Part shown: piece after piece, positions 43,983 to 44,068 of the stretch
How the letters are laid out: each line of letters opens with the position of its first letter
Position numbering within the stretch: position 1 is the stretch's first letter
Origin: Corynebacterium urinipleomorphum
Lineage (GTDB): Bacteria > Actinomycetota > Actinomycetes > Mycobacteriales > Mycobacteriaceae
Assembly: GCF_900155535.1 (NCBI RefSeq)
Contig: NZ_LT706965.1
Location: forward strand, 431,536-495,535
DNA: 64,000 nt
Reading direction: 5' to 3'
Program-made: the position numbers and the translations under genes
Notes under the pieces: model-generated
Database searches by the model: none
What the model was told of the DNA's origin: nothing
What the model saw: only the letters and a program-made list of their open reading frames with translations

Positions 43983-44025
43983 GAGCTCGGTTTTCGTCTC
44001 GTTTGTTTCGGTTGCGGATGGGATA

Positions 44026-44059
44026 CAAAAACGGCCGGCGTATGGTGAGGCCGGCCGTT
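44026..44059 (-). terminator. Intrinsic terminator/attenuator inside the suf operon
   Basis: Perfect 10-bp stem AACGGCCGGC (44030-44039) / GCCGGCCGTT (44050-44059), 10-nt loop. Read on the minus strand it ends in TTTTTG. It stands 10 bp after the sufC stop and 44 bp before the sufS start. Confidence 0.8.
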
Positions 44060-44068
44060 GTGGAGGGT

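Follow-up and report, generated by a model that had tools for sequence, protein, structure and literature searches.

A probable leaky intrinsic terminator between sufC and sufS in the suf operon of a small Corynebacterium group

SufB, SufC and SufD form a scaffold complex, and the sulfur is supplied by SufS-SufU. In the E. coli iscRSUA operon, the structured gap between iscR and iscS uncouples parts of the operon through small-RNA guided decay. Internal terminators that lower the expression of distal operon genes are already known. In the ABC importer operons of cellulolytic Clostridia, internal terminators have measured efficiencies of 20.7–96.1%, according to the available part of that report (PMC9045158). 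Internal termination was found in 38% of the operons of an archaeon (PMC10450193, available part). In E. coli, a terminator placed shortly behind a stop codon was almost fully repressed by coupled ribosomes. One series there had a termination efficiency of ∼0.8 at 18 nt, and a second series had 0.12 at 17 nt, as given in the accessible portion of the study (PMC4824070). A word search of the available text of a further paper (PMC13323073) found no mention of corynebacteria. Our literature search covered the best-matching titles and abstract openings, and these named no terminator in a Corynebacterium suf operon. In the literature searched, we did not meet the suf location, the clade or the recurrence at one junction that are described below.

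The window is a stretch of 64,000 nucleotides from Corynebacterium urinipleomorphum (contig NZ_LT706965.1). Its suf genes lie on the minus strand in the order sufB-D-C-S-U-T, with a SufR-like regulator upstream of sufB. The scaffold genes are sufB (46056–47501; NCBIfam TIGR01980, 731 bits, cut-off 346.4), sufD (44874–46055; TIGR01981, 256.6 bits, cut-off 222) and the ATPase gene sufC (44069–44824; TIGR01978, 331.5 bits, cut-off 212.8), whose stop codon is at 44071–44069. They are followed by the cysteine desulfurase gene sufS (42720–43982; TIGR01979, 558.6 bits, cut-off 475.1), the sulfur transfer gene sufU (42187–42642; TIGR01994, 157.8 bits, cut-off 92.5) and a sufT-like gene with a DUF59 domain (41686–42177; Pfam PF01883, FeS_assembly_P, 59.3 bits, cut-off 23.5). 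The SufT-like and SufR-like proteins also matched NCBIfam models, both below the cut-off. C. meitnerae has the closest sufC among named records, at 96% identity. A PemK/MazF-like toxin gene (Pfam PF02452) and a small gene before it occupy 40981–41660 on the suf strand. This toxin-antitoxin-like pair begins 25 nt past the sufT-like gene on the same strand, so the suf transcript may extend into it. The small gene matched no Pfam or NCBIfam family.

sufC, the last gene ahead of the candidate terminator, and sufS, the first gene past it, are codirectional and separated by 86 nt. On the minus strand the order is TAA (44071–44069), ACCCTCCAC, the left stem arm AACGGCCGGC (44059–44050), CTCACCATAC, the right stem arm GCCGGCCGTT (44039–44030) and TTTGTATCCC, and the start codon ATG follows at 43982–43980. 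The two arms form a perfect 10-bp stem with 8 G-C pairs around a 10-nt loop (44040–44049), and a 9-nt spacer (44060–44068) separates the stem from the sufC stop codon. The T-tract TTTTTGTAT (44023–44031; 7 T in 12 nt) contains the run TTTTT at 44031–44027, the first two T of which belong to the stem as its final two bases. The remainder of the gap (43983–44022) is the sufS leader, which has no TANNNT and carries AACCGAG at 43992–43986, ahead of the start codon. A G+C-rich stem with a T-run directly behind it on the coding strand has the features of an intrinsic (Rho-independent) terminator. The T-tract is oriented along the operon only, as the plus-strand copy of the palindrome is followed by GTGG. 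RNA 3′ ends are expected at about 44024–44029.

The isolated hairpin has a folding energy of −18.7 kcal/mol (z −4.63), and none of 200 shuffles was as good; for the 96-nt stretch around it, z was −2.83 and 2 of 200 shuffles were as good. Minus-strand sequence and folding thus confirmed the perfect 10-bp stem and T-tract that the sequence-only reading had placed after sufC in an 86-nt gap. The packaged terminator scan missed the hairpin because its loop limit is 3–8 nt. When 150 nt of sufC upstream were included, the stem probability in context stayed at 0.96–0.99, and on this ground a regulated attenuator with an antiterminator pairing to the end of sufC was rejected. Rfam gave no family at its gathering score in 43900–44150, and in 41600–48500 it gave five sub-threshold matches only, all far under the gathering scores. 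A dispersed repeat (REP-like or a mobile terminator) was rejected as well: in the 2.26 Mb genome the 86-nt gap matches only itself below E 0.1, and its next-best match has E 0.169. The pattern GGCCGGC-loop-GCCGGCC has 5 occurrences in the genome, against 2 for the backwards control.

To place the element against its background, we counted hairpins with a T-tract on both strands of 464 kb of the same genome, using genes from our own codon-usage caller, which missed sufR. There were 142, compared with 79, 93 and 100 in three block shuffles. Called genes contain 96 of them, and 36 follow a codirectional gene; 21 of these 36 precede another codirectional gene and 15 an opposite-strand gene. Four of the 21, the suf element included, are within 60 nt of the next start. 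Judged by density, a match in a single 86-nt gap is roughly a 1% event, and the presence of the hairpin in eight genomes makes a chance origin very unlikely. In form the suf element resembles the genome's ordinary terminators, but its location is unusual. The same genome has another terminator-like hairpin, with a 13-bp stem and a T-run, where two codirectional genes lie close together; it stands 27 nt ahead of the second start (G000:C13:104800-104838 or 238783-238819, minus strand). The genes that flank it are, we assume, two very similar acyl-CoA dehydrogenase-like genes.

The junction (321 bases) was used as a DNA query against 242 Corynebacterium genomes. Seven further genomes (G071, G201, G232, G035, G055, G238 and G140) matched over 314–321 of the 321 bases, and all seven carry the hairpin. 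With the window this makes eight genomes and seven distinct sequences, G035 and G232 being identical. All 70 stem cells are paired across the seven sequences. Two stem pairs vary: the first is G-C in five sequences and appears once each as G-U and A-U, and the second is A-U in six sequences, the seventh having G-U. The other eight are invariant. The covariation count by itself is weak, being matched in 135 of 500 shuffles, because eight of the ten pairs never vary. Of the 20 stem columns 17 are invariant, compared with 2 of 11 loop columns and 1 of 9 spacer columns. The mean pairwise difference is lowest in the stem (0.052); the T-tract has 0.252, the leader 0.312, the spacer 0.402 and the loop 0.483. 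At the third positions of the last 99 sufC codons, 55 of 99 are invariant and the difference is 0.188 (Fisher test on invariant columns, p 0.022). The T-rich tract is present in all seven sequences with varying letters, and the six other than the window have 8 T in 12 nt. The spacer is fixed at 9 nt in all seven, with eight of its nine columns variable, whereas alignment gaps fall in 2 of 11 loop columns and 19 of 46 leader columns. In G071, G201 and G140 the stem can take in one or two further A-T or G-T pairs, and the spacer would then be only 7–8 nt long.

The nearest two genomes without the hairpin are G161, where stop and start codon are adjacent (gap 0), and G148, with a gap of 23 nt. 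The sufC of G161 is 96% identical to that of the window, yet there is no terminator. In a quick operon tree G161 and G148 fall into an unresolved group with the clade, which fits a single gain with a loss in G161 as well as it fits other orders of events.

The leaders also share a word. Six of the seven distinct clade leaders carry AGAACCGAG ahead of the sufS start, and the window has AAAACCGAG. The same AGAACCGAG occurs in nine terminator-less genomes of another lineage (L162, L163, L169, L175, L177, L190, L201, L202 and L236). An ordinary ribosome-binding site was rejected as an explanation of the leader word GAACCGAG, which lies within 25 nt before the start in none of the 414 called genes of the 464 kb.

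We then compared the junction across the genus, calling a terminator strict when it had at least 7 bp, 5 G-C and 4 T in 8. The set was the 150 genomes with the best SufC matches, among 199 with a match of 201 searched; 18 named loci (L009–L026, which may repeat species) and the clade members G201, G232 and G238 lie outside it. Start codons were set by homology, and some gap lengths are possibly off by some codons. A strict terminator was present between sufC and sufS in 10 of the 150 genomes. Five have the type of the window, four (G017, G107, G108 and G145) have CCCACCCCG...TGGGGTGGG followed by TTTTC, and one (G100) has AGAGCCCGTGG...CCACGGGTTCT followed by TTTTTG. These three types are mutually unlike in sequence and sit on separate branches; on a sampled tree of 79 operons, terminator presence takes a minimum of 4 changes. 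Ten more of the 150 genomes have a strong hairpin at this junction with too few T. The sufC-sufS gap exceeds 30 nt in 49 genomes and is 30 nt or less in 101, and in most Corynebacterium genomes examined the two genes overlap or nearly so. Given the short gaps in those 101 genomes, a dosage step at this point is not needed in the genus at large. The gaps of L229 and L235 (176 and 130 nt) contain long palindromes with 10- and 12-bp stems and no T-tract, which are perhaps inserted repeats.

The other suf junctions served as controls in 79 operons, namely that of the window, the 18 named loci and 60 fetched loci, the last taken in part systematically (about one genome in three) and in part for their nearness or their hairpins. 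The count of 9 of 79 at sufC-sufS is biased upwards, since some loci were picked in this way. A strict terminator was found in 0 of 77 at sufR-sufB, 0 of 79 at sufB-sufD, 0 of 79 at sufD-sufC despite 48 gaps longer than 30 nt, 1 of 79 at sufS-sufU (17 long gaps) and 0 of 79 at sufU-sufT (8 long gaps). Outside the genus, none of 62 loci carried one at sufC-sufS, where only 11 gaps were longer than 30 nt. Within long gaps, Fisher tests that treat related genomes as independent gave p 0.0012 against sufD-sufC; against sufS-sufU (p 0.26) and sufU-sufT (p 0.33) the difference was not significant, kinship again being ignored. Three unrelated terminators at this junction, and hardly any at the other suf junctions, suggest that a dosage step between scaffold and sulfur donor was selected repeatedly. 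L247 (G148), a close relative without a sufC-sufS terminator, has a strict terminator with a 7-bp stem and a 12-nt loop at sufS-sufU.

The reading that we favor is that the hairpin is probably an internal intrinsic terminator that leaks and would keep SufBCD above SufSUT. RNA polymerase from promoters before sufB would transcribe sufB-D-C, the nascent RNA would fold at 44059–44030, and part of the polymerases would stop in the T-rich tract, yielding sufBDC messages with a stable 3′ hairpin. The remaining polymerases would continue into sufS-U-T. There, sufS would be translated from its own leader, uncoupled from sufC, unlike in most relatives. The outcome would be an excess of the SufB-SufC-SufD scaffold over the SufS-SufU sulfur donor and SufT. 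Nine nt separate the sufC stop codon from the stem, so a ribosome that ends sufC close behind the polymerase would cover the stem base and probably keep termination partial. That termination occurs in the cell, how efficient it is, which protein ratio results and what the ribosomes contribute are inferred from the sequence.

All upstream promoters meet the terminator, which leaves sufS two options, read-through or a promoter in the 39–47 nt behind the stem. The sequence-only reading had argued that full termination would strand sufS-U-T. The genome has no second copy of SufU or of SufS, the sole other SufS match being distant, partial and 33% identical. As both are single-copy, termination cannot be complete unless sufS has a promoter. 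Partial read-through is the simplest reading. Leakiness is plausible, since 773 of 1,383 predicted terminators of C. glutamicum had only a gradual fall in coverage and 320 a clear end, according to the part of the report at hand (PMC3890552). Counting against the reading, the T-tail held only 1.9% of the mapped ends at these 320, and the first stem arm 72.2% (PMC3890552).

An unlikely but credible alternative is RNA protection or processing, in which the RNA would be cleaved in the leader and the hairpin would then guard the 3′ end of the sufBDC part, sufBDC would outlive sufSUT and the T-tract would play a minor part. The ten genomes that have a strong junction hairpin with too few T fit this, as does the stability of the stem in context. 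Differential decay behind internal structures is also described as widespread in E. coli, in the accessible part of that work (PMC5927463). Against it, the T-rich tract is kept in all seven clade sequences and both other terminator types have T-runs. Protection is also compatible with termination, and both may act together.

The fixed spacing suggests that the ribosomes translating sufC may gate the terminator. Of the 36 terminators that follow a codirectional gene, two have a stop-to-stem distance of 9 nt, this one included, and none a shorter one; the other 34 are at 13 nt or more. In every clade sequence the stem starts 9 nt after the stop codon while the letters of the spacer drift, and on this rests an unlikely, bolder idea of a translation-gated terminator. 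Ribosomes following closely would hold the hairpin open, lagging ones, as under stress or slow translation, would let it fold, and corynebacteria would have placed terminators at the boundary of scaffold and sulfur donor at least three times. If gating were true, SufSUT output would track the translation state in addition to SufR.

It is quite unlikely that termination is full and that a sufS promoter in the leader makes sufSUT a separate transcription unit. The sequence-only reading had offered an attenuator and a sufS promoter side by side. The attenuator is the better supported of the two, by the kept hairpin and T-tract and by single-copy SufS and SufU; the promoter fared less well, with TANNNT in one of seven leaders. 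A pattern search for the −10-like TANNNT between stem and sufS start found none in six of the seven distinct sequences, and a conserved −10-like hexamer behind the terminator was rejected on this count. The exception is TAAATT in the leader of G035 (the same in G232), which speaks for a promoter there. GGAA is absent from stem to start codon in all seven, and the sufC-sufS gaps of G100, G017 and G107 contain no TANNNT. G100 has just 14 nt, containing AGGA, between its T-run and the start codon. A packaged scan of 38000–50000 returned no promoter-like sites. In C. glutamicum, which is described as having no other cluster assembly system, suf promoters are named only before and in sufR, in the part of the report available (PMC11995493). 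On the other side, the TANNNT pattern does not cover promoters that lack it or those of other sigma factors, and 565 sub-operons with internal starts are reported for C. glutamicum (PMC3890552, available part). With no −10-like hexamer in six of seven leaders and no second copy of SufS or SufU, read-through is a more probable route to sufS than a promoter of its own.

A neutral remnant, a terminator left by a rearrangement of the junction and silenced by ribosomes that finish sufC 9 nt before it, is very improbable: it would suit the minimal stop-to-stem distance, the loss of termination at short distance in the E. coli reporters (PMC4824070, accessible portion) and G161, which manages without a terminator, but the stem diverges far less than loop, spacer and leader, its pairing persists through its changes, and unrelated terminators recur at sufC-sufS.

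On the reading of a leaky internal terminator, a mid-operon stop signal in a small Corynebacterium group probably passes only part of the transcripts to the sulfur-supplying genes. Close relatives with and without the element can be compared, which makes it a simple, testable case of operon retuning in evolution. The E. coli iscRSUA operon is alike in that an iron-sulfur assembly operon is uncoupled at an intergenic RNA structure; its genes are different, and it acts through decay and not through a T-tract terminator. The available part of the work on Clostridia describes a closely similar arrangement, with a U-tract stem-loop directly after a gene within the operon and a similar gap size. These elements are mostly without a promoter and are thought to raise the upstream product (PMC9045158). 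The phylum and the genes differ, and termination and RNA ratios were measured there, whereas the suf case is a prediction from sequence. The arsC-arsD hairpin of Bacillus sp. CDB3 likewise lowers distal operon expression, and a shorter transcript exists there; unlike suf, it belongs to an arsenic resistance operon and is a single case (PMC4562236, accessible text). The internal termination sites of Methanococcus operons also serve unequal expression, as far as the available text goes, but termination there is archaeal and does not use a bacterial hairpin terminator of this kind (PMC10450193). The E. coli reporter work, in its accessible portion, used the phage terminator tR2, unlike suf; it has in common with suf that the distance from stop codon to stem sets the suppression by ribosomes, and the 9 nt of suf falls in the repressed range (PMC4824070).
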